From Crocinitomicaceae bacterium (lineage in GTDB: Bacteria; Bacteroidota; Bacteroidia; Flavobacteriales_G; Salibacteraceae), in assembly GCA_002713215.1 (NCBI GenBank), contig PAVO01000019.1, positions 372,001 through 436,000 of the forward strand: a stretch of DNA of 64,000 nt, read 5' to 3'. The translations under genes and the position numbers were made by a program. Below, piece after piece: positions 1-15,364 of this stretch (positions are counted from its first letter, which is position 1; the number at the start of each line of letters is the position of its first letter). Below the pieces are notes generated by a model, which saw only the letters and a list, made by a program, of their open reading frames with translations, searched no databases and was not told where the DNA came from.

Positions 1-156
1 GAGCGTGCTAATAGCTTAAAAAAGGCAGATCGGGTATTAATTAAACTGGGTTTTAATACCGCTGATAAAGGGCAAAAATGGGTCAGGTTTTATGATGATT
101 ACAGGCTAGGGATAAAGTGTAAAATCATGGCTAAAGCATCTTATGTTGTATTGTGA
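1..156 (+). CDS. C-terminal end of an unknown protein (partial, cut by window edge)
   Basis: The first 51 codons read open from the window edge and stop at TGA 154-156; the start lies outside the window. The visible tail is basic, ends in KIMAKASYVVL, and I do not recognise it. Its stop overlaps the GTG start of the next gene in a GTGA quartet, so the two are probably translationally coupled and belong to the same operon. That it is coding is inferred from the uninterrupted frame and the overlap; the function is unknown. Confidence 0.6.
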   Translation, partial: ERANSLKKADRVLIKLGFNTADKGQKWVRFYDDYRLGIKCKIMAKASYVVL

Positions 157-1484
157 TTAGGCGTTTTATTTTCATATCGATTGCCTTCGTTTACAGTGTT
201 ATTAGTTCCGCGCAAACGGATTACACCATGCTACCCATGAAGCATATACCACAATCGTCAAGAGTAAACCCACAATTTTTTCCTGATTATCGTTCTTATG
301 CAGGTATTCCGGTATTGAGTTCCATTTATTTTAATGCCTATAGCAGCAGTCTGTCATTCAGTGATTTGGTAAACCGAAACAAGTCCATTGATTTTAGCTC
401 AGCCATGAATCGATTAAACGACAGAAATTATTTCAGTACCGATATGGCCATTGATTGGTTTTCAGGTGGATATAAAAAAGGAAATCACTATTTCAATTTT
501 AATGTCACTGAGGTTCTAAATGTTTATATCAGTTACCCAAAGGAACTATTAGAATTAATGTGGTATGGGAATGGAAGTTTCCTTGGGCAAAATGTCTACC
601 TGGATGGGTTAGCAGCAGATTTTACTCATTATCGTGAATTTTCCCTCGGATATTCTACCCAATACGATAAAAACTGGACTTTCGGCATTAAAGTGAAATA
701 CCTCAATGGAAAAAGTATTGTTCAGACGGAAAAAAATGCATTGTTTTTCTACACCGATGAAGATTCGTACAACACCTATATCAACGGTTCCTATTCTACT
801 TATACTGCCGGTTTGTTTAATGATGATGGCAGCTCCTCACAATATAAATTATTCGGAAATAAAAATCACGGGGTAGCATTGGACCTGGGCATCTCTTATA
901 AACTTAATAAATGGAAGTTCGATGCCTCCATACTCGACTACGGGTTTATCAATTGGCGGGACAATGCTAATGTCAGATACAACGATTCCATATTAGTGAA
1001 ATATGAAGGAATTAAGATCGGCAATGTATTTAATGTGGAAAACGAGGTAGATTCGGGGATTCAATCATATACTGACACGATAAATAGTACGTTGGAATTT
1101 GACGTGTTGCCCCGGTCGTTTAGCTCTGAGTTAGTAACGTCTTTTGTACTTGGACTGGAATATGAACTAAATAAAAACATCGATCTGTCTGCATATTATG
1201 TTCATAGCAAATACCGGGAAGAGTTTCGTCCCATGGTGTTGGTAAATGGTAATTACAAGTTAAAAAATTGGTTGGTTTTTAGTTTGAATTATAACCTGAA
1301 TGGGGTTAATTACACCAATGTCGGACTTGGGTTAACGTTTAAGGTAAAATTTGCTCAACTCTATTTTGTAACTAACAACATTGCTTCGCACTTCAAACCT
1401 GAGAATAGCCGCAATGTAAATTACAGAGCTGGATTGAATTTAATATTCAATGGTAGGGAAAAGAAAAGCCTCCCGGTGGAGTAG
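153..1484 (+). CDS. DUF5723 family outer-membrane beta-barrel protein (copy 1)
   Basis: This 443-residue protein starts with GTG and a signal peptide ending near ISSAQ, followed by alternating hydrophobic/polar strands rich in Tyr, Asn and Gly, as expected for an outer-membrane barrel. Shared blocks with the second copy downstream (YPK.L.E..WYGN, LDGL..D, KYLNG, GVALDLGISY) place both in the DUF5723 family, a Bacteroidota group without assigned function. The C-terminus ends soon after a last amphipathic strand (RAGLNLIFNG). It overlaps the previous gene by four bases and is followed by a 104-bp gap before the lipoprotein gene. I infer an outer-membrane location; no biochemical role can be read from the sequence. 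Confidence 0.8.
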   Translation: MIRRFIFISIAFVYSVISSAQTDYTMLPMKHIPQSSRVNPQFFPDYRSYAGIPVLSSIYFNAYSSSLSFSDLVNRNKSIDFSSAMNRLNDRNYFSTDMAIDWFSGGYKKGNHYFNFNVTEVLNVYISYPKELLELMWYGNGSFLGQNVYLDGLAADFTHYREFSLGYSTQYDKNWTFGIKVKYLNGKSIVQTEKNALFFYTDEDSYNTYINGSYSTYTAGLFNDDGSSSQYKLFGNKNHGVALDLGISYKLNKWKFDASILDYGFINWRDNANVRYNDSILVKYEGIKIGNVFNVENEVDSGIQSYTDTINSTLEFDVLPRSFSSELVTSFVLGLEYELNKNIDLSAYYVHSKYREEFRPMVLVNGNYKLKNWLVFSLNYNLNGVNYTNVGLGLTFKVKFAQLYFVTNNIASHFKPENSRNVNYRAGLNLIFNGREKKSLPVE

Positions 1485-1588
1485 CTTCTTTAAGTGGTAT
1501 TATTAGCGATCTCAATCCTTGTTTTACCGTTAAGAATTTAGTTACTTTACCAAGATTATAAGATTTAGCAATTACTTCTGTTTATCGC

Positions 1589-3133
1589 ATGTACAAATTA
1601 GTAGCAACATTTTTCGCAATTATTCTCCTTTCAGCATGTGTTAAAAAGGAAGATTTTGATCCTGACAGATTTGCTAAAACAAGCTGGAACCCGCAGATAG
1701 GGTTTCCCTTGGTGCACAGCGTAATGGGAGTCCAGGACCTCATGGGAAACACCGATTCCAATGCGGTAACCACTGAGCCAAGCGGGTTGGTGGTATTGAG
1801 GTATGACGGTGGAGCTAAAGAATTAAGTGCAGAAGATTTTATTCAATTTCCCGGAAATGTGTTTTTAAATTCAGTGTCTGGTGTTCCAGTTATTCCGAGA
1901 TCATATGATATTCCCGTGCCCTTTAAATTTCCCGGAGACACCGATATGGTTTTTACCAAACTGGTCATTGAGTCCGGCAACATGCAACTTGGCTTTAATT
2001 CAGGACATCAAGCCGAAGCAACTTTTAAATTCCCAACGTTAACTTCAGCTTCAGGTACTAAACTAACCACAAAAGTTCCAATGCATATTGATGAAGCAAT
2101 AGTTGATATTTCCGGTTATACGCTGGAATTAAATTCCAGCGGGGAATTTATGGTTAATGTTGAAATCCCTACTGGTGTAAGCGGTGGTTCGGCAAGCTTA
2201 ACCGTACAATTAAAAGACATTGTTTACAAACGAATTGAAGGAGATTTAAAAAATAGAAGGGTTCAATTACCACCGGATTCGGTGCGGCTTCACGTGTTTA
2301 AAAATTTGGTAGGGCAGGGTGAACTATTTGTGGTTGATCCAAGAATACGAATGGAGATAGAAAATGGCTTTGGTGTTCCACTGGCACTCGACCTCAGTGA
2401 TATGGAAGCTTATTATTCCGTTACCAATAGCACTGCTAAAGTGGTGAAACCAGGACAATCGGTTTTTAATATAATCCAGGGAAGTGCACAGTCGCCAGGA
2501 GCGTCTACGGTTGAACTCAATAAAAGCAATAGTAATTTAAGCTCTGTATTGCAACCTACACCGGTTTATTTCAGGCACACCATAAATGCTGAATCCAATC
2601 CAGGCAGTACAGGTACAAATGCTAACGTGCTGGAACGTGAAGCAAAATTAACCGCCAGAACAATTCTCGAACTGCCGTTGAACGGAAGGATTAAGGGGTT
2701 GAGGTTAATGGATACCATTCCTTTTGCCATAAATGAATCCTTTGATTACATAAAAGATTTGGCAATAAACACTGCTATCAAAAACGGATTTCCGTTTACC
2801 ATTAAATTAAGCTTAAGGCTATTGGATTCCAATTACCGACAGGTGGAAACAGAAGCAGGGAACCCGGTATTCTTAATGAAGGATAGAGAAATTGCAACCT
2901 CAGGAACAGTAGTTTCTTCTACAGGAAAAATTGATCAGAGTAATTTGGCCACAGTAGTTAATGTATATCAGTTGGGAGTTGCAGAAACGGATGCAGTATT
3001 AGGGGGGAGGTTTGTTAGAATCGAAGGAGAGCTTGAGACATTTAATGGCGGGGCGTCTAATGTTGCGATCTATGATAATTACATATTTGACCTTAAGGTT
3101 GGAACTAAAATAACCGGCAACATTAATTTTTAG
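1589..3133 (+). CDS. Predicted surface lipoprotein, unknown function
   Basis: The 514-residue product has a lipoprotein signal with lipobox LLSAC, so Cys17 should be lipidated. The residues just after the Cys (VKKED) include a K-(D/E)2 pattern resembling the surface-export signal described for Bacteroidota lipoproteins, which suggests, as inference, display outside the cell. The rest is beta-rich with no motif I recognise. It sits between the two DUF5723 barrel genes, only 4 bp before the second, so the three products probably form one outer-membrane assembly. There are no Cys pairs, nucleotide-binding loops or membrane helices after the signal. Existence of the gene is secure; its function is open. 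Confidence 0.8.
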   Translation: MYKLVATFFAIILLSACVKKEDFDPDRFAKTSWNPQIGFPLVHSVMGVQDLMGNTDSNAVTTEPSGLVVLRYDGGAKELSAEDFIQFPGNVFLNSVSGVPVIPRSYDIPVPFKFPGDTDMVFTKLVIESGNMQLGFNSGHQAEATFKFPTLTSASGTKLTTKVPMHIDEAIVDISGYTLELNSSGEFMVNVEIPTGVSGGSASLTVQLKDIVYKRIEGDLKNRRVQLPPDSVRLHVFKNLVGQGELFVVDPRIRMEIENGFGVPLALDLSDMEAYYSVTNSTAKVVKPGQSVFNIIQGSAQSPGASTVELNKSNSNLSSVLQPTPVYFRHTINAESNPGSTGTNANVLEREAKLTARTILELPLNGRIKGLRLMDTIPFAINESFDYIKDLAINTAIKNGFPFTIKLSLRLLDSNYRQVETEAGNPVFLMKDREIATSGTVVSSTGKIDQSNLATVVNVYQLGVAETDAVLGGRFVRIEGELETFNGGASNVAIYDNYIFDLKVGTKITGNINF

Positions 3134-3137
3134 TATT

Positions 3138-4496
3138 ATGAAAGTAGTATTTAAAATTTCGCTTGTTCTTACCTTCTTTTCGTATTCCCTTTTTACTCAA
3201 GCCCAACAAGATTTAACCCTTTACGAATTGCGATCTGTTCCTCAAGCCAGCCAATTGAATGCTTCCAGAACACCTCTAAGCAAAGGCTATGTTCTATTAC
3301 CTGCATTAAGCGGTTTTTATGCAACCTTGTACAACGAAGGTTTTAACTATAGTGACATGGTGACCGATGATGGAGATTCCTTAAGAGTGGATATGGCGAA
3401 AGGGATCAGTAGAATGAAAAAACTTAATGACCTTGGAACTGACATTAGAACCGTATTACTTGGTTTTGGCTTTAGAACGGGAGCTACATACATTACGTTC
3501 AACGTGGAACAAAAAATAAGTGCCAGGTTCACTTACCCTAAGACACTGTTTGAGTTTGCATGGTATGGAAATGCCGATCCTCGGTTTCTCGATGAGCGTG
3601 TTTCAATGGATGGATTGGGATTTGATTATATGCAATATACCGAAGCTTCCTTAGGTTGGGCAAAGGACATTGATGAGAAGCTCTCGTTAGGTGTTCGGGC
3701 CAAATATTTAAATGGTACAGCCAACCTGAAAACTACAGATTCACAGTTGGGCTTTACTACGAAGAGCGATGCTTATGAAATTAGCGTAGATGGTTCTTTT
3801 TCTTATAAATCAGCTGGATTGGCAGGTTATATCCTGGATGATTCCACCCCGGAAGGGGAGAAAGATGCGGTTAGTGCCGCTACAGGTAATCACGGAGCAG
3901 CTTTAGATGTTGGCTTTACTTACCGAATAGATAACCGACTGTCAGTTTCGGGAGCAATAAATGATGTTGGTCTAATTAACTGGAGTTCCGGAGTGAAAAA
4001 CGGGGTGGCAGATACCGTGAATTTTACCTATGAAGGAGAGAGTGTAAAGAATTGGAGCCAAACTTCTATAAACGGAAAGGGAATCATAGATGCGCTGGAT
4101 ACCTTGTTTAAGGGAATAGAATTTCAGGAGAATAGCGAAAGCTATTCTACCTGGCTGCCTACGAAAATTTATATCGGTGCAAATTATCGGGTATTGCAAA
4201 AAACGGACTTAAGTATTCTATCCTATAATGAGTTTTATAACAACAGATTTAAATCCTCAATTCGAGCAGCCCTTACGCACAGAATTCGCAACTGGCTTAT
4301 GGCAACGGTTAACTATTCCTTTTATGGTAGAAGTGCTTCCAACGTTGGAGTAGGTTTCTCCATTAATGGAGGGCCTGTTCAGTTATATGCGGTTACCGAC
4401 AACGTGGTTTCCTATTTATTACCGACAAAGAACAAAAACTTCCATCTACGATTTGGAATCAATTTAACCTTCGCGAATAATTTCAGTCAAAATTAG
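3138..4496 (+). CDS. DUF5723 family outer-membrane beta-barrel protein (copy 2)
   Basis: This 452-residue paralogue of the protein at 153-1484 has a signal peptide ending near TQAQ. It keeps the same landmarks in the same order: YPKTLFEFAWYGN, the MDGLGFDY block, KYLNG, then GAALDVGFTY, and a final strand LRFGINLTF. The gene begins 4 bp after the lipoprotein stop and ends 9 bp before the TPR-CHAT gene, so co-transcription is very likely. The two barrels are clearly divergent, pointing to an old duplication with separate roles rather than a recent repeat. Location in the outer membrane is inferred from the family and strand pattern. Confidence 0.82.
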   Translation: MKVVFKISLVLTFFSYSLFTQAQQDLTLYELRSVPQASQLNASRTPLSKGYVLLPALSGFYATLYNEGFNYSDMVTDDGDSLRVDMAKGISRMKKLNDLGTDIRTVLLGFGFRTGATYITFNVEQKISARFTYPKTLFEFAWYGNADPRFLDERVSMDGLGFDYMQYTEASLGWAKDIDEKLSLGVRAKYLNGTANLKTTDSQLGFTTKSDAYEISVDGSFSYKSAGLAGYILDDSTPEGEKDAVSAATGNHGAALDVGFTYRIDNRLSVSGAINDVGLINWSSGVKNGVADTVNFTYEGESVKNWSQTSINGKGIIDALDTLFKGIEFQENSESYSTWLPTKIYIGANYRVLQKTDLSILSYNEFYNNRFKSSIRAALTHRIRNWLMATVNYSFYGRSASNVGVGFSINGGPVQLYAVTDNVVSYLLPTKNKNFHLRFGINLTFANNFSQN

Positions 4497-4505
4497 ATGA
4501 ACTAG

Positions 4506-7500
4506 ATGCGAGCATATTTAACCGTAATAAAGCTTTTCTTATCAACTGTATTTCTCGTCGCAATTGGCTCAAATTCATTTGGGCAGAATGTCAAATACGA
4601 AAAGAAATATCAAAAAGTAGTTCAACGGGCAGAAGCTAATTTTCAATATGGCGATTACTATCAGGGTAAAGAACTAGTTAGGAAATTAAGAAAAAAATAT
4701 GTCAAGAAACAGGTCACTTCTACACAGAATTATGTGCTTTTGTGCCTTTATGAAACAAAATACCTTGTAGGGTTGGGCCGATACATTGAAGTACAGGACA
4801 GCCTGGATAATTCCATGTTCTACTTTAATTCAACGATTAATAAGGACAGTTCCAAGTATGGAGATGCACTTCTAGTACTGACTGATATTTATTCCGATTA
4901 TGGAAACTTTGTAAAAGCCCGTGAATATTACGACAAAGCCAAAGCCTACTATGACCAGGTAGATTACCGCAAATTTGAAGTGATTGACACCAATGCAAGC
5001 GGCGAAAAGAAAAAACTGGAATACCTGGATCCAAGTTTAAAAATGGAGAACAGGATCAATGATCTGTTGGCAAAAAGAATACTCAGAATTCAGGTTGAGC
5101 GTGGTTTTTATCGCGAGTCGGAAGGCGATTACGATAACCTGATTAAATACCAGGCTTCAGTTACTAAGAGAGAGTTCAGCAATGTCGATACAACTCTAAA
5201 AAGCAAAACCACTAAAATTAAAAAGAAGGAATTCAAAAAAAGGCAAGTACAACTGGCTTCGCTTTATGTTGAAAAAGCTGATTTTTTAAGGTTAAAGGGG
5301 AATTATTCTAAAGCTGCATCCATGTATCAGGAGAATGAAAGATTGTTTGAGCGATTCAAGCTCAACAAGAAGTCATTTCCTTATATAAAGAATCAATTTG
5401 GAAGAACCTTGATGGCTGAGAATGACGGACAAATATTGAAGCCGTATAAGGTTTACCAAAAACTAAAAAGTTCACTTGACAAAAGCCATCAGGTTTCCAG
5501 CTACCATAAGTTTTACAATGAAGTGGTGGAGCAGGAAATCCAGTCTTTTATTGATGCTGACCTTGGAAAAAAAGCCAAAAGCCTTTTCCTGAAATACAAG
5601 TTGGATAACGTACACAAATATGGTAAACAGAGTGTTTACTATTTAAATGCTCTAATGCTGGAGAATAAATACAGCAATAGAAATAAGAGATACAAGAAGG
5701 CAATAAAAAAAGAAAACGAGCTCAAAGAAGGAATTGCGGAACAAATACCAAATGATCATGTAGGTAACTTAAAATTCAATGACCATTTCTATGATTTTTA
5801 CCGAAGACATAATAAGATTGAGGAGGCTAGGATTGAGCGGGAAACCAATGAATGGATAGCCGGAATTAATTTTGGTGAAGAGGCTCCAAGGTATTCCATG
5901 GCCGTGCTGGATCTTGCTAATTTCAACATCGATATGCAAGATCAATTTTCCGACTCAAAAATGAAATACGAGAAGCACTTCGATAAGGTAATCGACCGAC
6001 AATTGCATGACCACCATCCTGCTTATTCAATCTACCTAAAGTATTATTCCAAGTTGAAAGCCTATTTGGATAAATACAATGAAGCGTATGCCTATAGTGG
6101 AAGAATTCTAAAGATAGCGAATGAAAGGTTTGGGCCCAAGTCAGAGGAGTATGGGGTTGCTATGATTGATTTAGCCTCACTAAACATTGACCGTGGTGAG
6201 TTTGATGAAGCCGAATCTCAATTGGAAACAGCCACAGAAATTATAAAGGAAAAAAGCGGTAAAAAAAGTATTAATTACTATTTGGCGCTGATGGAATTGG
6301 CCGAATTGTATCAAATAGGAGGGAAGTACAAAAAGGCCGATGCTACCATGAAAACAGCCTACAAGCTGTTGAATAGATCAGGCGAAAATGCGGCCTTAAG
6401 TGTCAATTCTTCAGAAGAATTAGCCGAACTATACATTGCACAGGGAAGGTATAAAGCAGCTGAGAATATTCTCGTAAGGTCGATCGACTTGAATGAAAGG
6501 AAGTATGGTGACGATCATTACAGATTAGTAAAGCCTCTTTCACTATATGCTGATTTGTACCTGGTTACAGGTGAATACATTGAGGCCGAAAAGAAGGTAA
6601 AGCGTGCGCTGGAATTAAGTAAAAAAACGCTTGGAGATACCAGTGTTGCCTATATGGATAACCTTACTCTATTGGCTGAAATTTATGTGGCAATGGGCAA
6701 TTACGATGAAGCTCAGGAGATTTATTCGAATGCCCGAAAATTGATTCAACAAAAATTTGGTAAGGGAAACATTCGGGAGGCGGAAATCTTAGAAAAATTG
6801 GCTGATGTTAATTTCAAATCAAATGATGCAGATATTGAGGTTATAGATGGATTGTTGGATGAAGCCAAGGACATTATAATTACCAACTTCAGTAGTTCGC
6901 ACCCCAGCTATGCCGATTTACTGGAATACCACGGCCGGGTGTACATGGAATATGGCAAATTCGAAGAAGCAGAGTCGAATGTTATGGATGCCAGAAAAAT
7001 ATGGTATGCAGTTCATGGCAAGGATCACATAAAGTCTGCAAGAAATGAAATGCTGATGGGTGATTTGAAGTACAAAGAAGAAAAGTATCATGAAGCCTAC
7101 GAGAACTTCAAAATCTCTTCTGAGAGCTTCAAAAATATTCTGGACGATAATCACCCAGAGTATATAGATACCCGAAGTAAAATGGGACGTAGCCTATTTG
7201 CTAATGGTGAATATGCCAGAGCCATGAAGGTGTATGACGAGACTACGCTGAAATACCTGGTGTACTTAAAGAAGTACTTCCCTTCTTTGTCCGAAAAAGA
7301 AAAAGGGAAATATTGGAATAGCATTAAGGGTGATTTTGAGGCTTACAATACACTTGCGCTTAATTTCCAAAGCAGTAAGGGTAAGACCAGAAAGTCCCTT
7401 GGAAATATCTACAGTTTCAAACTGTCAACCAAAGCCATTCTTCAAAGTTCATCGGCCAAGTTAAAAAACAGGGTTGTCAATTCCGGTGATGGTGATCTTA

Positions 7501-8849
7501 TCTTCCGTTTTGGTCAATTCAACGAAAAGAAAGAATTGCTTACAAAAGGTCTTTCCATGACTGAGGCGGAAAGATTATCCAATGGAATTAACATGGCGGA
7601 ATTGGAAAAAGAGATCAATTCGCTGGAAAAAGAATTGAGTGAAGAGTCCGAAGAGTTTGCACAGATTTTCGACAATGAACAATATACCTGGAAAGATGTC
7701 AAGAAGGTTCTAAAACCCAATGAGTATGCCGTAGAGATTATTCGATTTAGGTATTGGGATAAGGTATTTACAGATTCTATTTTGTACGCAGCACTTATCC
7801 TGCACAACAGGAGTAAAGCGCCAGAACTGGTATTGCTTTCTAATGGTAATGAACTCGATGCCAAATTCTTTAAGTATTATACCAACGTTATAAAGTATAA
7901 AGCCAAGGACAAAAAAAGCTATGGGCAGTTCTGGAAAGCAGTTGATAGTTACATACCCGATAGTTCTACCATTTATATTTCGGCGGATGGGGTATATAAC
8001 CAGATGAATATTGAGACCCTGGTTGACACTTCCGGGACTTACATCATTGACAAAGACAATGTCTATTATGTAAGTAATACCAAAGACCTCGTACTCAACA
8101 GCCAGGAAGGGTATAAACAGAAATATGAAACTAATTCCGCATTTCTAATTGGCAATCCAAAATTTGCCGGTGACGCCAAAAAAATCGACATGGGCAATAA
8201 GGTAAGTTCCATTGAACCCTTACCTGGTGCTGAAAAGGAAATCCTAAACATTACCAAGCTCCTGGCCAAAAAGAATTGGAAGTATGTAACGCTCACCCAG
8301 GATTCTGCAAGTGAATTGAAAGTAAAAAACATGGAAAGTCCGAGAGTATTCCACGTGGCTACTCATGGGTTTTTTATGGCCGAGTCTAAAAAACAAGAGC
8401 AAACAGGAAGGGAAGACATTGCGGATAATCCTTTGTTGAGAAGTGGATTGTTGTTTACTGGTGCCGGTGAATTATTGGCCAATAATAACATTTACGATTT
8501 CAATAAAAAGGACGGGATTTTAACTGCCTACGAGGCCATGAACCTAAACCTTGACAATACGGAATTGGTGGTGTTGAGTGCTTGTGAAACCGGTCGCGGA
8601 GAAATAGAGTCTGGCGAAGGGGTGTATGGCTTACAACGATCATTCCTGGTGGCTGGAGCAGATAACGTGGTAATGACGTTGTTTAAAGTAAATGATAAAA
8701 TAACCCAGGAATTGATGAATGACTTTTATTCTCATTGGTTAGCTGGAGAATCAAAAAGAAGCGCTTTCCAGGAGGCCAAGAAAAGAATCAAAAAGAAGTA
8801 TGAAAAACCAATTTATTGGGGAAGTTTCATGATGATCGGTTTGGATTAA
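4506..8849 (+). CDS. Secreted TPR-CHAT protein (caspase-like protease candidate)
   Basis: The 1447-residue protein opens with a signal peptide cleaved near SNSFGQ, so it acts outside the cytoplasm. Residues from about 30 to 950 are helical repeats; clear tetratricopeptide units (for example LYIAQGRYKAAENIL and YVAMGNYDEAQEIY) lie in the second half. A charged linker leads to a C-terminal CHAT domain from about 1120. CHAT is a clan CD, caspase-related fold; both expected catalytic residues are present, His1287 in VATHGFF and Cys1360 in LSACETGRG, followed by the conserved GVYGLQRSFLVAGA stretch. It is most likely an active cysteine protease with TPRs sensing a partner. It follows two DUF5723 barrels and a lipoprotein at 9-bp spacing. 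Its substrate and trigger are unknown. Confidence 0.88.
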   Translation: MRAYLTVIKLFLSTVFLVAIGSNSFGQNVKYEKKYQKVVQRAEANFQYGDYYQGKELVRKLRKKYVKKQVTSTQNYVLLCLYETKYLVGLGRYIEVQDSLDNSMFYFNSTINKDSSKYGDALLVLTDIYSDYGNFVKAREYYDKAKAYYDQVDYRKFEVIDTNASGEKKKLEYLDPSLKMENRINDLLAKRILRIQVERGFYRESEGDYDNLIKYQASVTKREFSNVDTTLKSKTTKIKKKEFKKRQVQLASLYVEKADFLRLKGNYSKAASMYQENERLFERFKLNKKSFPYIKNQFGRTLMAENDGQILKPYKVYQKLKSSLDKSHQVSSYHKFYNEVVEQEIQSFIDADLGKKAKSLFLKYKLDNVHKYGKQSVYYLNALMLENKYSNRNKRYKKAIKKENELKEGIAEQIPNDHVGNLKFNDHFYDFYRRHNKIEEARIERETNEWIAGINFGEEAPRYSMAVLDLANFNIDMQDQFSDSKMKYEKHFDKVIDRQLHDHHPAYSIYLKYYSKLKAYLDKYNEAYAYSGRILKIANERFGPKSEEYGVAMIDLASLNIDRGEFDEAESQLETATEIIKEKSGKKSINYYLALMELAELYQIGGKYKKADATMKTAYKLLNRSGENAALSVNSSEELAELYIAQGRYKAAENILVRSIDLNERKYGDDHYRLVKPLSLYADLYLVTGEYIEAEKKVKRALELSKKTLGDTSVAYMDNLTLLAEIYVAMGNYDEAQEIYSNARKLIQQKFGKGNIREAEILEKLADVNFKSNDADIEVIDGLLDEAKDIIITNFSSSHPSYADLLEYHGRVYMEYGKFEEAESNVMDARKIWYAVHGKDHIKSARNEMLMGDLKYKEEKYHEAYENFKISSESFKNILDDNHPEYIDTRSKMGRSLFANGEYARAMKVYDETTLKYLVYLKKYFPSLSEKEKGKYWNSIKGDFEAYNTLALNFQSSKGKTRKSLGNIYSFKLSTKAILQSSSAKLKNRVVNSGDGDLIFRFGQFNEKKELLTKGLSMTEAERLSNGINMAELEKEINSLEKELSEESEEFAQIFDNEQYTWKDVKKVLKPNEYAVEIIRFRYWDKVFTDSILYAALILHNRSKAPELVLLSNGNELDAKFFKYYTNVIKYKAKDKKSYGQFWKAVDSYIPDSSTIYISADGVYNQMNIETLVDTSGTYIIDKDNVYYVSNTKDLVLNSQEGYKQKYETNSAFLIGNPKFAGDAKKIDMGNKVSSIEPLPGAEKEILNITKLLAKKNWKYVTLTQDSASELKVKNMESPRVFHVATHGFFMAESKKQEQTGREDIADNPLLRSGLLFTGAGELLANNNIYDFNKKDGILTAYEAMNLNLDNTELVVLSACETGRGEIESGEGVYGLQRSFLVAGADNVVMTLFKVNDKITQELMNDFYSHWLAGESKRSAFQEAKKRIKKKYEKPIYWGSFMMIGLD

Positions 8850-8858
8850 TTACACTTT

Positions 8859-9218
8859 ATGGCCAACCACAATGTAACCGGCAATGAAGGAGAAAAAATT
8901 GCAGTCAATTTTCTCAGAGAATTAGGATATAAGATCCTTCATACCAACTGGCGGTACCGACACCGGGAAATCGATGTTATTTGTAAAGATCAGGATGAAG
9001 TAGTTTTTGTTGAGGTAAAAACACGATCAAAGTTTGAACACGCCAATCCCAATGAACTAATTACTAACAGCAAAATCAAACATTTGATAAATGCTGCAGA
9101 GGAGTACATTATTTCAAACCAAATAGAAAATGAATCGCGCTTTGATGTGGTGATTGTGGTAATGGATACTCCGCCACAGATAAATCACATTCCCGGGGCT
9201 TTTGAACCTACGGTTTAG
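8859..9218 (+). CDS. yraN: YraN / UPF0102 family nuclease-like protein
   Basis: This 119-residue cytoplasmic protein matches the UPF0102 (YraN) family over its whole length: an N-terminal GNEGEKIAVNFLRELGYKIL segment, then REIDVI and VVFVEVKTRS, which form the E-D-(E-x-K) pattern of the restriction-endonuclease-like fold. Family members are usually about 120 residues. The glycine normally preceding the first Glu of the EID motif is Arg here. The gene starts 9 bp after the TPR-CHAT stop and is the last of the plus-strand run, facing the sortase gene tail to tail. Its role is poorly known; nuclease activity is inferred from fold residues. It need not be related to the envelope genes upstream. 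Confidence 0.9.
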   Translation: MANHNVTGNEGEKIAVNFLRELGYKILHTNWRYRHREIDVICKDQDEVVFVEVKTRSKFEHANPNELITNSKIKHLINAAEEYIISNQIENESRFDVVIVVMDTPPQINHIPGAFEPTV

Positions 9219-9230
9219 TTCAATTGTTAA

Positions 9231-12200
9231 CTAGCGCAGTAAGTACATTTTACCAAACCCCTTCTTGAAGTATGAATCGGCAGCGGTACTTCGGTGCTCT
9301 ATTTCTTCGTTGTTAATTTTGGTAATCACCCGATAGAAATAAACCCCATTTGCCAGTTGATCTCCATATTGATCCCTTCCATCCCAGGCGTAAGAGGTTA
9401 TGTTTCTTCCAATGTGAAGTGACCCTAATTCGTCCCGATCAATTTCCCTGACCACCACGCCAGTAGCTGACAATATTTGTATTCTAAAATATTCAGGCAC
9501 CTGATATCCGGTTAACGTAAACACAAATCGGGTAGAAGTACTAAAGGGATTAGGGTAGTTCAGTATTTGAGTAATTGTACTCTTATTAATTACTTCAAAT
9601 CCAATTTTATACTTGTAAGACCCACTTTTGTTTTGGCTGGCATCCTTTGTATCAACCTGTAATTCATAGTCGCCATCTTCTAACAAAATGGGGCTAAACC
9701 TAACCTCGCCTTTGTTCTTTTCTCCTGAAGGTGGAATAAATTCAATTTCATAATCCGAACTGGATTGCTGGAAATAAATACGTTTTTTAGTACGGTTTGG
9801 ATAGGTCAAATAAACTTCAAAGTTGGAAGTATCGTCAACCGGTTTAAACTGGTTTTCGTCGGTAAGCGAAATTAAAATTTCTGGTCTGGAAGAAACAATA
9901 TCGCCATCCAGAATATGGACACCATCAAAGGTTACATCCAACAATGGATTGGTCCTGTCTGCTTTAACATAAAAATCAAACTTCGTAACATTATTGAAGT
10001 GCTCACCCTCAGGTTGCCACAGCGTATCTTCCGGATTTACATCCATGAATAGGGTATACTCGCCTGATATTTCAGAAGTGTTGTAACCATAGGTGAGAAT
10101 TAAAGAATCGTGATGGGCCAATGGCTTGGTTTTTCGAAGTTCAGATATCGCTATGTCTCCTTGCTTGTTAAGAACAAGATAGCGAATCGTTACACTATCA
10201 GCATCTGTTGCACTCAGGTTCTTGAGTCCCAGTTCAAGTTTTAGGTTTTCACCTTGTGTGAGTGTGTCGTTGTGAAACGAATTTTTATATCTGGGGCACA
10301 GGGCGAGCTCCAGGGGTTCCTCCATCATGAGCAACCAGTTTTTTAACTGAGGAGCATCCTTGGCCAAACTATCTTTAAATTGAGCTTTAAGTTGAAGGTC
10401 CTGCATTTGGTTAATGTTGGGCACTACACTTTTTAAATCAGGAACCGAAAAGGTGTTATCATCAATTTTCAATAATTCCAGTTCCGAGCCTGTGGTATCC
10501 TTACCATGAAGTGTAAGCACAATACTGTCTTCCTTGCTTATTCGTTCGTAGTTCCAGTATAAGCTTTTATAATCGGTAGAGTTTGTAATTGTAACCCCTT
10601 CCATACTCGCTTCCTTAATACTCGATTGCACAAATGCGCTTAAGCTAATGGCCGCCTTGGCGTGACTGCCGATTACTTCAATCGCCTTACTCTTATTGCC
10701 TTTTTGAGCAAACAGAATATAAGGGACATCATTATTTAAAAAACGAATGGAATCGCTACCTAAATCTTCAAAGGCTTGGTAATGCCTGTTTTTCCAATAG
10801 CTGCTATTCTGAAAATTGGCATTATTACCGCTCATTACCAAAACGTAAAAGCTATCGGGTATCATAGTATTAATCATCCAAATCATGGAGTCCATCATCA
10901 TAGAATCGTTGATCAAAAACTGAAATTTGTTATCCGGTACAAAACATTTTCCTCCGGGGCCGTCATTGTAATTACCAAAATTGTTATTCGGGTTTTTAAT
11001 CACTCCACCATCATCCCATCGGACTTCCCAACTTTTAAAAGTGTTAGGGTCTATAACCGAAATAATCATACTTCTAAGGCCTCCACAATAGGAAACCATC
11101 CCTTGCAAATTTCCATTAATACTCCATTTAAGCGCGTTGTATTCGTCAGCCGTCGTCGGGTTGCCCTTATTGGCTGCTGATATGTTGACCTGCCCCTTGG
11201 CAAAATCAAATTTTTGATTGGGTTTGTCGTAAGTCAAGTCTACAAATCGATTGTTTTTAAATTGGTCGAGCTTGTATTGGCTCCAGCCTGTTTGATTTGG
11301 AATGTACTGAAAACTATACTCGCGCCATTTTTTTGCGCTACCTCCATCAGATGGAGAACATCTCCAGAAGAACACGGTAGAATCGCTAATATTTCCCATG
11401 TTAGGTTGCCATTGAATCAAACCTCCGAATGACGTAACATTCCCTCTTTTCAGCTGAGCCGAATTATAACTATCGGTTACGTCAATTTCAAATTGATAGG
11501 CCCTGGAAGGAGCGTCAGGATCAGCTGTTGAAGCACTTAAAGTAACCTTATTACCGGGCTGAATTGAATAGTTGCCTGGGTGGACAGGAATTAGATCATC
11601 GCTGGTAACATTTACAGTTATGGATTCGGTAAAGTTGTTGATCACCGGATATATTTCGTCAATGGTATTATCAGGGTCAATTCTAAAAACAAATTTGTTT
11701 TCACCAACGCTTATTTGATTGCTGATGAATAATGATAAGCTTCCGTTATATCGATTTGCTACGCCCTTTATCGTGTCCAGATACACGGTATCCTTTCCGG
11801 ATGGAAGCGTTCTTATAAGCTGAATGGGTACCAGTGTATCAATGCCTTTTCCAAGATTATGAATTGTGTATGAAATGGTCATAGTTCCCTGGTCAATGCT
11901 TGTGAATTTGGGCGCGCTAATGTCTTCTTTTCTAATCGCAAAATCGGCCTTCGATTTCGGGTAAAGTTTCAATGCTGGATCTCCGTGAAGGTTGATCTCC
12001 ATACATGCCTGATTAACAAGCTTCGACCCACCCTCAATCTCAATGATCACGTCCTTCATTAAGTCTCCAATAGCTTGACCATATTGATCCTTGGCCAATC
12101 TTCTGTAAAAAGGGTTTGACCAGGTATTCAGGGCAAAATCATATCCCGTTGATGTAGACGCAATAAATCCAACTACTCCACCTTTTGGCTGAAGCACCCA

Positions 12201-14279
12201 TTTTTCGTTAATACTGGTTGAGCCGGTATTTGGAAGATGGAAATCACCCACATTGCATGAATTAGCAATAAAAATAGGGTATTTACCTGTATTGTTATAA
12301 TCTTCTGGTTCGCCAATGTTTATTCCCAATTGTCCACCGGATCCATGTCCAAAGAAGGAGAGCAGTGAAACACCGTCATCAATCCAATATTTTACCGAAT
12401 CAAAACTTATGGATTGAACTGAACCGCTTGCAAAGCGTTTGAACGTTTCAATTTTTCCACCAAATTGGTTGCCTTCCCAATGATCCTCGTAGTTGCTTAA
12501 AAAACTAGAGAATACTCGCTGTTGATTAATGTCTGCCCCGCCCGCAAAGTGTATCCCTCTCTTCGTCCATGCTTTGTCTTCGACCCTTGGAGATATGCTG
12601 TTAACCTCCTTTTCAAAATCCATTACCTTATCTAGGTAATCCAACACATTTTGGTTATTAGTTGAAGCCAGCCTTCCGGTTGGAACGGAGGGAGTGAATG
12701 ATTGATTATCCAAAGGAGCGGTAATAATATTGTCCGCCGGTGGAACTCCCATTGTTGGAATTAAATTGATCTTTTGATTGCCAGGTGACAGGCGAGTCAA
12801 ATTTTCTTTTACCGATTTACCAATAATAAATAGGTAACCCGGTTTGTTGTTAGGAATAGAAGAAACATAGTAAAGAAAGTTCTTAATGGCCAGGGGATGT
12901 TTCTTAATTCCGTACGAAAATTGGTCGTAGAGGTCGTCTATATCAACCAAAATAGCATTAAAACCTTTAGATGATCGATACGATTGGTATTGGAGTGCGG
13001 AACTCCATAATTTTTGGTGAGATAGAATAACGAACGCGGAATCAAAACTGGTGGTCGACAAATCAGTCATCCAGCCCGCACCACGTTGCTTGCTGTAACT
13101 TGGTAATATAGTAGATACATTAATAATTGATCTCGAAATGACAACCGGCCTTTCGGTACCCTGTGCAATCAGGAACTCAAAAGTACTTCCAGTTTGAACG
13201 GCCTTACTCATGTACCCGTTTTCAAGGTCTAAAGCGTAAGGAAAAAAGTTGGTGCCTGCACCCGAAAATGAAACATAACTTGTGTCTGCATTATCCGGAA
13301 TATTAAACTTCAGGAAATCTTCTCCAGCGAGCTGAACATCGTGCGCATATTTAATTTTGGCATAAGCGGCGGCCTGAAAATCACTCGGAGGTTCAGGAAT
13401 AAGGGGCTTTTTCCTAAACCGTATTTGCGTTAGACTTGTAACCGAACTTGCGGGGATTTCAAATTGATGTTCAATCATTTGGTAACCATTATAGGAAGTG
13501 TCAACAGCGGTTTGGATGTTGGTGCCTGGCCCGTATTCAATCAATAATCCGTGATTGGGCGACCCTATTGCATTGCTTTGCCCAACAGTTACCGCAGTTA
13601 CCTTAGCATTTGGGGTCCCAGTAACATTGAGTGGGTTTTTACACGGTACGTAATAAATTCGAATAATGGTGTTATAAAAGCGATACCCAACCCATCCTTC
13701 ACCGTTTTGATACAAGGGAGGTGATACACCATTACGATCTTTTTCGCCTTCGTTATACTGATTTATTATGGTAGCAACTTCTTCATTGAAAACATGTTTC
13801 AACTTAGTTTTTCCTGAAAAAACAGTATTATTTATAGGCTTGTATCGTTTGCTTGAGGGAACTCCCGAATAGGTAATGTAGTACCAGGCGGTATCATTAA
13901 ACAAACTGTAGTAAGGATTTACCAGGTATTCTGGTTTTATATAGAGTTGTCTATCAAACCAGCCGTCATTCTTGTTGGCGTAAAACATTATATAATCAGT
14001 GGCGTCAAACTTACCATTGGCCTCACCGTCAATAAAGATAAACTGTTCTTGTCCCCTTCCGTAGACTTGGATGTTTCTGGGATCAACATTGGAAAGAGAA
14101 ACACCAATGGAGGCGAAGGCATTATTTAACTCTTGATAATTAACCCGATAAATTCCTTCCCTAATAACCGGGATTTTTAAATAACGTTGGTTGTAATTAA
14201 TCCATTCGTTCCCAAATGGCTGCGTGTAACCAATAATATGAAAAGCCAGGACTGTTAATAGGAGCCCAAGCCGTTTCAT
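9231..14279 (-). CDS. PorU-type T9SS sortase, long form (Peptidase C25 family)
   Basis: The 1682-residue product has a short signal peptide (ends near HIIGYTQ), an N-terminal barrel-like pro-region, a gingipain-type C25 domain at roughly 410-790, several beta-sandwich domains, and a C-terminal FlgD-like sorting domain (NYPNPF start, WDGRDQYGDQLANGVYFYR). The catalytic pair is visible: His645 in FGHGSGG and Cys675 in ANSCNVGD. PorU enzymes at the cell surface remove the T9SS signal from cargo and attach cargo to lipid. This protein is far longer than classical PorU of about 1150-1300 residues and resembles the long class annotated elsewhere as PorU2. Its start overlaps the stop of the PorV/PorQ-like gene by 4 bp, so the pair is co-translated. 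Confidence 0.85.
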   Translation of the reverse strand: MKRLGLLLTVLAFHIIGYTQPFGNEWINYNQRYLKIPVIREGIYRVNYQELNNAFASIGVSLSNVDPRNIQVYGRGQEQFIFIDGEANGKFDATDYIMFYANKNDGWFDRQLYIKPEYLVNPYYSLFNDTAWYYITYSGVPSSKRYKPINNTVFSGKTKLKHVFNEEVATIINQYNEGEKDRNGVSPPLYQNGEGWVGYRFYNTIIRIYYVPCKNPLNVTGTPNAKVTAVTVGQSNAIGSPNHGLLIEYGPGTNIQTAVDTSYNGYQMIEHQFEIPASSVTSLTQIRFRKKPLIPEPPSDFQAAAYAKIKYAHDVQLAGEDFLKFNIPDNADTSYVSFSGAGTNFFPYALDLENGYMSKAVQTGSTFEFLIAQGTERPVVISRSIINVSTILPSYSKQRGAGWMTDLSTTSFDSAFVILSHQKLWSSALQYQSYRSSKGFNAILVDIDDLYDQFSYGIKKHPLAIKNFLYYVSSIPNNKPGYLFIIGKSVKENLTRLSPGNQKINLIPTMGVPPADNIITAPLDNQSFTPSVPTGRLASTNNQNVLDYLDKVMDFEKEVNSISPRVEDKAWTKRGIHFAGGADINQQRVFSSFLSNYEDHWEGNQFGGKIETFKRFASGSVQSISFDSVKYWIDDGVSLLSFFGHGSGGQLGINIGEPEDYNNTGKYPIFIANSCNVGDFHLPNTGSTSINEKWVLQPKGGVVGFIASTSTGYDFALNTWSNPFYRRLAKDQYGQAIGDLMKDVIIEIEGGSKLVNQACMEINLHGDPALKLYPKSKADFAIRKEDISAPKFTSIDQGTMTISYTIHNLGKGIDTLVPIQLIRTLPSGKDTVYLDTIKGVANRYNGSLSLFISNQISVGENKFVFRIDPDNTIDEIYPVINNFTESITVNVTSDDLIPVHPGNYSIQPGNKVTLSASTADPDAPSRAYQFEIDVTDSYNSAQLKRGNVTSFGGLIQWQPNMGNISDSTVFFWRCSPSDGGSAKKWREYSFQYIPNQTGWSQYKLDQFKNNRFVDLTYDKPNQKFDFAKGQVNISAANKGNPTTADEYNALKWSINGNLQGMVSYCGGLRSMIISVIDPNTFKSWEVRWDDGGVIKNPNNNFGNYNDGPGGKCFVPDNKFQFLINDSMMMDSMIWMINTMIPDSFYVLVMSGNNANFQNSSYWKNRHYQAFEDLGSDSIRFLNNDVPYILFAQKGNKSKAIEVIGSHAKAAISLSAFVQSSIKEASMEGVTITNSTDYKSLYWNYERISKEDSIVLTLHGKDTTGSELELLKIDDNTFSVPDLKSVVPNINQMQDLQLKAQFKDSLAKDAPQLKNWLLMMEEPLELALCPRYKNSFHNDTLTQGENLKLELGLKNLSATDADSVTIRYLVLNKQGDIAISELRKTKPLAHHDSLILTYGYNTSEISGEYTLFMDVNPEDTLWQPEGEHFNNVTKFDFYVKADRTNPLLDVTFDGVHILDGDIVSSRPEILISLTDENQFKPVDDTSNFEVYLTYPNRTKKRIYFQQSSSDYEIEFIPPSGEKNKGEVRFSPILLEDGDYELQVDTKDASQNKSGSYKYKIGFEVINKSTITQILNYPNPFSTSTRFVFTLTGYQVPEYFRIQILSATGVVVREIDRDELGSLHIGRNITSYAWDGRDQYGDQLANGVYFYRVITKINNEEIEHRSTAADSYFKKGFGKMYLLR

Positions 14280-15364
14280 TTTTTGAATTTATCTAGGTCA
14301 ACGGTGAGTGAAAATACGTTGGAATATAGCGCTACAGACTGGTCACCAACATCGGTCAGTGCGTAGTCAATCGTAACTCCTTTAAGGCTGAGTCCAATTC
14401 CAATATTGGGCTGAAAGGTTGTTTCTTTATGGTTGCCAACTTCGGCTTTTGTCTTCTGGAAATTACCAACCCCTCCGCGAATGAATACAATTTTCGCATA
14501 ACCAATTTCCATCCCAAAATAGGGGTCGATACTCACAGGGTCTCCCTGAATTAAGGTGTTTCGCTGTCCATCAAATGTGGTAACAAAGTTCAATTCAGGT
14601 AAAACGGTAAACTTTTTTATTTCAAATTCACGGCCCACTCCCAAAATCAATCTCGGCAAGGTAAGTTCTAAGCCATTTTCGGGAATCTCGTTACCTGTTT
14701 GCTGAAATACATCAATTGTGTTTTGATCCAAAGAATATGACCAGGCATTAAAAGTTGAAGTGGCATCACGTAACACAGCGCCAAAATTCCATTGTTTCAG
14801 TTGATATTGTCCTGCCAGATCAATTCCAAAACCCCAGGCTTGCGCAAAAGAGCCTATTTTACGGTAAATAACCTTAGCATTCAACCCAACCGAAAGCCCG
14901 GTAATTCCTGTTTTTCGGGCATATGAAAGCAAGAACGCATTGTCGATCGCTGAAAAGCTGGTGATGTTGTTGTAATTCACATTCCCGTTGTTATCCACCA
15001 GGTTTATGGTATTTGGTATATCATCCACCCCAAAACGGATGTATGAAAAACCTAGCGATGATTGATCATCAAGTTTGGTAGCCATTGCCGCGTAATCATA
15101 TTTGGCAATTCCTGCGAAATACTCATTGTGCATAAGAGCAATAGAATTCTTCTTCCTGAGTTCGGTTAACCCTGCAGGATTCCAATATCCGGCAGTAGCG
15201 TCTTTTACCGTGGCTACGGTTGCTTTTGACATGCCTAATGCTCTTGCTCCAACCCCAATGGCTAAAAACTCATTGGAATATTTTACTGCTTGTGCCTGCG
15301 CAGACTGCAAAAACAGCAACAGGAACAGGGATAGAATTAACGTTTTAATAGAAGAAGTACTCAT
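14276..15364 (-). CDS. PorV/PorQ family outer-membrane protein
   Basis: A 362-residue barrel protein with a signal peptide ending near QSAQAQ. The start of the mature protein (GVGARALGMSKATVATVKDATAGYWNPAGL) carries the FadL-like hallmark of the PorV/PorQ family. PorV and PorQ work with the PorU sortase in the T9SS attachment complex. The gene is directly upstream of the PorU-type gene with an ATGA overlap, so the two products are expected to form a pair. The motif region looks closer to PorQ-like members than to the classical PorV needed for cargo shuttling, so I do not assign the symbol porV. Transcription probably starts from the TAGCTTTG element at 15414-15421, leaving a leader of about 45 bases. 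Confidence 0.82.
   Translation of the reverse strand: MSTSSIKTLILSLFLLLFLQSAQAQAVKYSNEFLAIGVGARALGMSKATVATVKDATAGYWNPAGLTELRKKNSIALMHNEYFAGIAKYDYAAMATKLDDQSSLGFSYIRFGVDDIPNTINLVDNNGNVNYNNITSFSAIDNAFLLSYARKTGITGLSVGLNAKVIYRKIGSFAQAWGFGIDLAGQYQLKQWNFGAVLRDATSTFNAWSYSLDQNTIDVFQQTGNEIPENGLELTLPRLILGVGREFEIKKFTVLPELNFVTTFDGQRNTLIQGDPVSIDPYFGMEIGYAKIVFIRGGVGNFQKTKAEVGNHKETTFQPNIGIGLSLKGVTIDYALTDVGDQSVALYSNVFSLTVDLDKFKK

Follow-up and report, generated by a model that had tools for sequence, protein, structure and literature searches.

Introduction

CHAT proteases have been studied mainly as cytoplasmic effectors. The described protein that most resembles the one presented here in architecture is Csx29, the TPR-CHAT protein of the type III-E CRISPR system (Craspase), in which tetratricopeptide repeats (TPR) are followed by a C-terminal CHAT domain carrying a His-Cys dyad. 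For the outer membrane, the channels FadL and TodX as well as PorV of the type IX secretion system (T9SS) are the nearest described barrels, and a paralogous BamG/BamH pair encoded in a putative operon is known for the BAM complex (β-barrel assembly machinery) of Bacteroidota (PMC12611786, PMC12578637). Here, we analyse a gene cluster of a Crocinitomicaceae bacterium (family Salibacteraceae, class Bacteroidia) in which the gene of a TPR-CHAT protein stands directly behind a gene encoding a DUF5723 barrel. The stretch examined comprises a window of 64 kb (contig PAVO01000019.1 of assembly GCA_002713215.1, positions 372,001 to 436,000) and the upstream sequence of the same contig (locus L002). 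An original prediction, made from the letters of the window, had read two DUF5723 barrels, a lipoprotein and a secreted TPR-CHAT protein as one envelope protease module.

The TPR-CHAT protein differs from Csx29 in having a signal peptide, few cysteines and linked outer-membrane barrel genes. No Cas7-11 or other CRISPR protein was found beside the CHAT gene among the neighbours scanned on both sides, i.e. secA, rnhB, DUF3352, lipoproteins, DUF5723, yraN, porU2 and porV2. Our search of open-licence papers returned no paper naming DUF5723 or DUF3352 and none giving a role or assay for an exported CHAT protein. The explanation we prefer, and hold tentatively, is an exported TPR-CHAT endopeptidase in the periplasm serving an envelope module. 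The protease would have been built into the operon of this older module, which would consist of a FadL-type DUF5723 barrel, a lipoprotein and a membrane-anchored DUF3352/propeller protein.

Results

Conservation of the barrel-CHAT gene pair in the family

Of the 35 family genomes, 17 encode a close orthologue of CHAT (E below 1e-150), and in 16 of these 17 a DUF5723 gene directly precedes it, the DUF3352 gene taking this place in G006. Barrel-CHAT adjacency recurring in 16/17 genomes is far beyond chance, bearing out inside the family the linkage in related genomes on which the original prediction depended. The gap between the two genes ranges from about -26 to +25 nt across the 16 adjacent cases, as measured by first-start calling with true starts possibly lying later and with one clearly too-early start (L039) left aside. 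A DUF3352-propeller gene heads the same run in 16/17 loci, the exception, G023, lying on a short contig. In a maximum-likelihood tree of 71 CHAT proteins the 17 family proteins form one clade with 100% support beside Cytophagales forms of the same length. They are ~34-61% identical to the window copy, and the linked proteins being one clade indicates that the coupling was retained over 11 genera while the proteins diverged. The barrel-CHAT pairing is real and old in the family.

Other parts of the run are more variable. The two barrels to which the original prediction drew attention are present in the window, but a tandem duplication of lipoprotein and barrel occurs in only 2 of the 17 genomes, i.e. 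the source genome and G004; in G007 the second pair lies farther downstream. A lipoprotein gene before the barrel is lacking in G001, G003, G007, G010, G014 and G020, and among the family loci examined yraN comes after CHAT in 7.

The single clade also bears on a role as anti-phage or cell-death effector, according to which the exported CHAT protease would kill or block the cell on an envelope attack sensed via barrel and lipoprotein. Outer-membrane barrels are common phage receptors, which would suit such a sensor. The best-studied CHAT proteases act in defence systems as well, e.g. Csx29 as TPR-CHAT partner of Cas7-11 (PMC10028731, PMC9729208). We nevertheless regard this role as highly improbable: secA and rnhB are housekeeping neighbours, linked proteins forming one clade in one family are unlike the patchy pattern of defence islands, and assignment as a defence system was rejected as no PADLOC-DB model matched the barrel, lipoprotein, CHAT or DUF3352 proteins.

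Active site and export of the CHAT protein

The catalytic residue His1287 is kept in 101/102 and Cys1360 in 102/102 aligned relatives, the alignment containing long and short CHAT forms together with one truncated row left aside. Conservation of the dyad had been set in advance as a check on the original prediction, which had described the pair as intact, and this description is upheld. In 16 of the 17 family CHAT proteins the N terminus is hydrophobic and a Gln occupies the predicted cleavage position. This corresponds to the Q-rule described for Bacteroidota signal peptidase I substrates, which have Gln at the cut site (PMC5837995). The same export-signal test was passed by 50/57 long CHAT forms outside the family. 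For a single protein the test is loose, with 328 of 1126 open reading frames (ORFs) of >250 residues in the loci passing; despite this we regard the agreement of the signal across divergent CHAT orthologues as informative.

Cysteine content points in the same direction. Per 1000 residues, family CHAT proteins have 1.5 cysteines, close to the 1.0 of the barrels, whereas cytoplasmic-like proteins encoded in the same loci have 7.8. In the window protein Cys80 and Cys1360 are the only ones, and five CHAT orthologues hold a single cysteine, the catalytic one. That cysteines are nearly missing outside the catalytic position agrees with a thiol protease that is exported. Taken together, signal, dyad and cysteine depletion argue for an exported protein with a thiol under selection, and the signal peptide noted in the original prediction thereby gains support from its conservation and from the cysteine depletion. 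No T9SS sorting domain (Por_Secre_tail, CHU_C) was found in the CHAT protein, the C-terminal end of which lies within the CHAT domain. Secretion by the T9SS was therefore rejected and the periplasm is the expected end point, making it the likely location of the CHAT protein.

The DUF5723 barrel and the lipoprotein

The structural model of the CHAT-side DUF5723 protein (predicted local distance difference test score, pLDDT, 82) aligns with FadL, TodX, TbuX and CymD at Z 20.5-22.4 over 284-327 residues, with PorV at 19-20 and with BamG of three species at 17-18. DUF5723 is thus predicted to be a FadL-type outer-membrane barrel, and the alignment to FadL, TodX and PorV, and likewise CymD, extends over nearly the whole protein. 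It differs from FadL, TodX and PorV by a sequence identity of ~10%, by constituting a separate Pfam family, by the lipoprotein gene as partner and by often being fused to OmpA elsewhere in the class. In L184, L185, L186, L188 and L193, the DUF5723 barrels encoded beside DUF3352-propeller genes end in TSP3 and OmpA domains (an OmpA-like ending in L193); the OmpA-bearing barrels suggest that in many families the module is attached to peptidoglycan.

No Pfam family matches the lipoprotein. Its lipobox Cys17 is invariant across 18 homologues. The sequence starting with this cysteine, C-V-K-K-E-D, contains K-E-D one position off from K-(D/E)2, the surface-export signal of Bacteroidota lipoproteins (PMC5080379), and the lipoprotein is probably surface-exposed. 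For its model (pLDDT 80) the best Foldseek match is 4h3w (3e-9), to which there is also a weak sequence match (3e-4). This entry is BDI_1231 of Parabacteroides distasonis, a solved structure of unknown function, which with ~313 residues is shorter than the lipoprotein. A second lipoprotein (~530 residues) is found repeatedly across the class, paired with a barrel of 413-429 residues whose resemblance to DUF5723 is distant or too low to be detected (L203:3682-6555 in the source genome itself, L204, L205, L206, L208, L209, L211).

A FadL-type barrel combined with a lipoprotein, in paralogous pairs in the same genome, resembles BamG-BamH. Barrel and lipoprotein could accordingly constitute a paralogous BamG/BamH-type pair (like BamG2/BamH2), with the CHAT protein as the protease in quality control of surface lipoproteins and outer-membrane proteins. 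BamG is likewise a FadL-type barrel with a surface lipoprotein as partner (PMC12611786, PMC12578637), it aligns with the DUF5723 model as given above, and the second widespread lipoprotein with its distant DUF5723 partner would be in line with further such pairs. However, FadL and TodX are nearer in fold to DUF5723 than BamG, and the lipoprotein has its best structural match in 4h3w. Furthermore, no BamG/BamH chain of the PDB is matched at E up to 1 by the profiles built for DUF5723, the lipoproteins or the distant pair; the BamG structures 9n2d, 9hiv and 9hjm are present in the fold library. We therefore rejected barrel and lipoprotein as BamG/BamH at the sequence level, do not claim membership, and judge a BAM-like role to be improbable. 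BamH was not among the best 50 Foldseek matches listed for the lipoprotein model, by which a BamH fold is not excluded.

Distribution of module and CHAT protein across the class

In a class-wide sample of 247 genomes the DUF3352 protein is present in 142 and the lipoprotein family in 186, while a strong match to the CHAT profile was obtained in 42, few of these matches being full-length. Several observations weigh against the preferred explanation of a protease serving the module. The family member G012 has DUF3352 and DUF5723 without CHAT. Among 20 DUF3352 loci from different families, lipoprotein and DUF5723 follow in 7 and DUF5723 without lipoprotein in 2 more (L186 and L188, Pfam-confirmed), CHAT following in none. 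Conversely, the long CHAT proteins of Cytophagales are encoded apart from the module, with G054 having a long CHAT and no DUF5723 gene at all, and the profiles of the other three module proteins match nothing in the Cytophagales CHAT flanks. The gene rnhB, without plausible functional tie, accompanies the DUF3352 gene just as steadily, showing that gene order alone proves little on shared function. Finally, the CHAT-adjacent barrels are not one group in the best DUF5723 tree, the backbone of which is unresolved, so that a single barrel lineage tied to CHAT is unsupported.

With the module lacking CHAT class-wide and CHAT lacking the module in Cytophagales, CHAT is an accessory specific to one lineage, added optionally to an envelope module that is itself widespread. 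The original prediction of barrels, lipoprotein and CHAT protein forming one obligate machine is not sustained, since lipoprotein, DUF5723 and DUF3352 travel class-wide without CHAT and the long CHAT proteins of Cytophagales do so without these neighbours; what stands of that model is the export, the intact active site and the place behind a barrel gene.

These distributions are the strength of an alternative that follows close behind the preferred explanation in our confidence and is a serious possibility, according to which CHAT would be an operon hitchhiker. In the family ancestor, the gene of an exported TPR-CHAT protease with a separate, ancestral function in the envelope would have come to stand as the final large gene of the cluster formed by rnhB, DUF3352, lipoprotein and barrel, the protease being co-transcribed but not acting on or with the barrels. 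The Cytophagales orthologues, common away from the module, carry the same signal peptide and dyad, the module is complete elsewhere without CHAT, and rnhB, as well as yraN in one half of the family, keeps its place just as stably without functional tie. In contrast, the few-base gaps or overlaps in 16/16 adjacent cases suggest coupled translation, all other cluster-core products are envelope proteins as well, and the adjacency has persisted across 11 genera, all of which speaks against a mere hitchhiker.

In G054 (L047) the CHAT gene sits behind methylmalonyl-CoA mutase genes. More generally, the long TPR-CHAT gene of Cytophagales often lies behind two genes encoding proteins of ~370 and ~710 residues (L047, L072, L080, L094, L100 and others), both of which match methylmalonyl-CoA mutase in G054.

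Layout of the cluster and neighbouring genes

All four reported ORFs are present at the positions given in Table 1, open and on one strand. As originally described, the last three are closely spaced, with 4 bp between lipoprotein and barrel 2 and 9 bp between barrel 2 and CHAT, the distance between barrel 1 and lipoprotein being 104 bp. The assignment as two DUF5723 barrels, lipoprotein and TPR-CHAT protein is corroborated by the PF18990, PF12770 and TPR_12 matches and by the invariant lipobox cysteine; both DUF5723 profile matches cover the full domain above the cut-off. We add that the cluster extends upstream, the window edge cutting it and its start lying in the same contig. The full order on one strand is secA - rnhB - DUF3352/propeller - [lipoprotein - DUF5723] x2 - TPR-CHAT - yraN, in which the first lipoprotein copy (L002:13606-15156) overlaps barrel 1 by 4 bases. 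The DUF3352 gene before the lipoprotein-barrel pairs (PF11832, 2.2e-16) encodes a protein of 917 residues with an N-terminal hydrophobic segment, the DUF3352 domain and, in addition to what characterises DUF3352 proteins, a C-terminal β-propeller. A CHAT-family search of the source genome found one gene. The yraN gene starts 9 bp past CHAT and is probably not functionally related to the cluster.

Table 1. Window coordinates of the genes and features of the barrel-CHAT cluster.
Feature	Position	Strand	Evidence
DUF5723 FadL-type outer-membrane barrel (predicted), copy 1	153..1484	+	PF18990 1.2e-77, 262.6 bits (cut-off 26.8); GTG start
Lipoprotein of unnamed family, copy 2	1589..3133	+	lipobox Cys17; 19-32% identity to family members
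Lipobox Cys17 codon, then V-K-K-E-D	1637..1639	+	
DUF5723 FadL-type outer-membrane barrel (predicted), copy 2, directly 5' of CHAT	3138..4496	+	PF18990 9.6e-85, 285.9 bits (cut-off 26.8)
TPR-CHAT protein, predicted exported, 1447 aa	4506..8849	+	
Predicted signal peptide, residues 1-26, expected cut before Gln27	4506..4583	+	hydrophobic start, Q-rule site
Best-matched TPR repeats, residues ~521-900, kinesin-light-chain-like	6066..7205	+	TPR_12 2e-48
CHAT domain, residues 1143-1445	7932..8840	+	PF12770 1.8e-55, 188.9 bits (curated cut-off 24)
Catalytic His1287 codon	8364..8366	+	motif ATHGFF
Catalytic Cys1360 codon	8583..8585	+	motif LSACETG
yraN (UPF0102), next gene of the run	8859..9218	+	

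Convergent on the CHAT operon, on the minus strand of the window (9231-15364), lie porU2 (NF052324) and porV2 (NF052325), the presumed genes of a second T9SS sortase and of the barrel belonging to it. A functional link of the cluster with porU2/porV2 was rejected, as these genes are on other contigs or far off in relatives, the adjacency therefore being local. In most of the examined genomes of genus g9 and in G007 (L224-L233) porU2 contains in-frame stops or frameshifts at differing positions, the copy of G024 being intact; the breakage may represent repeated independent events or sequencing error. Upstream of secA, L002:3088-5733 encodes a large protein that carries SprB repeats as well as a sorting domain of the T9SS.

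Discussion

At the level of sequence, the locus combines a conserved gene order, close coupling, an export signal, a catalytic dyad, cysteine depletion and a single linked clade of CHAT proteins. From there we infer that the CHAT protein is active as a protease, resides in the periplasm, makes contact with the module and acts on a substrate. In the explanation that we tentatively prefer, the TPR superhelix would recognise either a portion of the module exposed to the periplasm or a client in transit through the module, the bound partner then being cut by the CHAT domain.

A more elaborate version appears unlikely to us. In it, the lipoprotein, exposed at the surface and seated on a FadL-type barrel, would relay an external signal or a client to the periplasmic TPR-CHAT protease, which would respond by cutting a specific envelope protein, and the whole would act as a caspase-like signalling or quality-control machine. 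If true, it would represent a caspase-like machine of the bacterial outer membrane.

The CHAT-linked version of the cluster provides a handle on the class-wide set of lipoprotein, DUF5723 and DUF3352 proteins, for which the literature searched gives no function. An exported CHAT family with an intact active site, widespread in Bacteroidota and tied to a barrel operon in one family, would mean caspase-like activity in the bacterial envelope.

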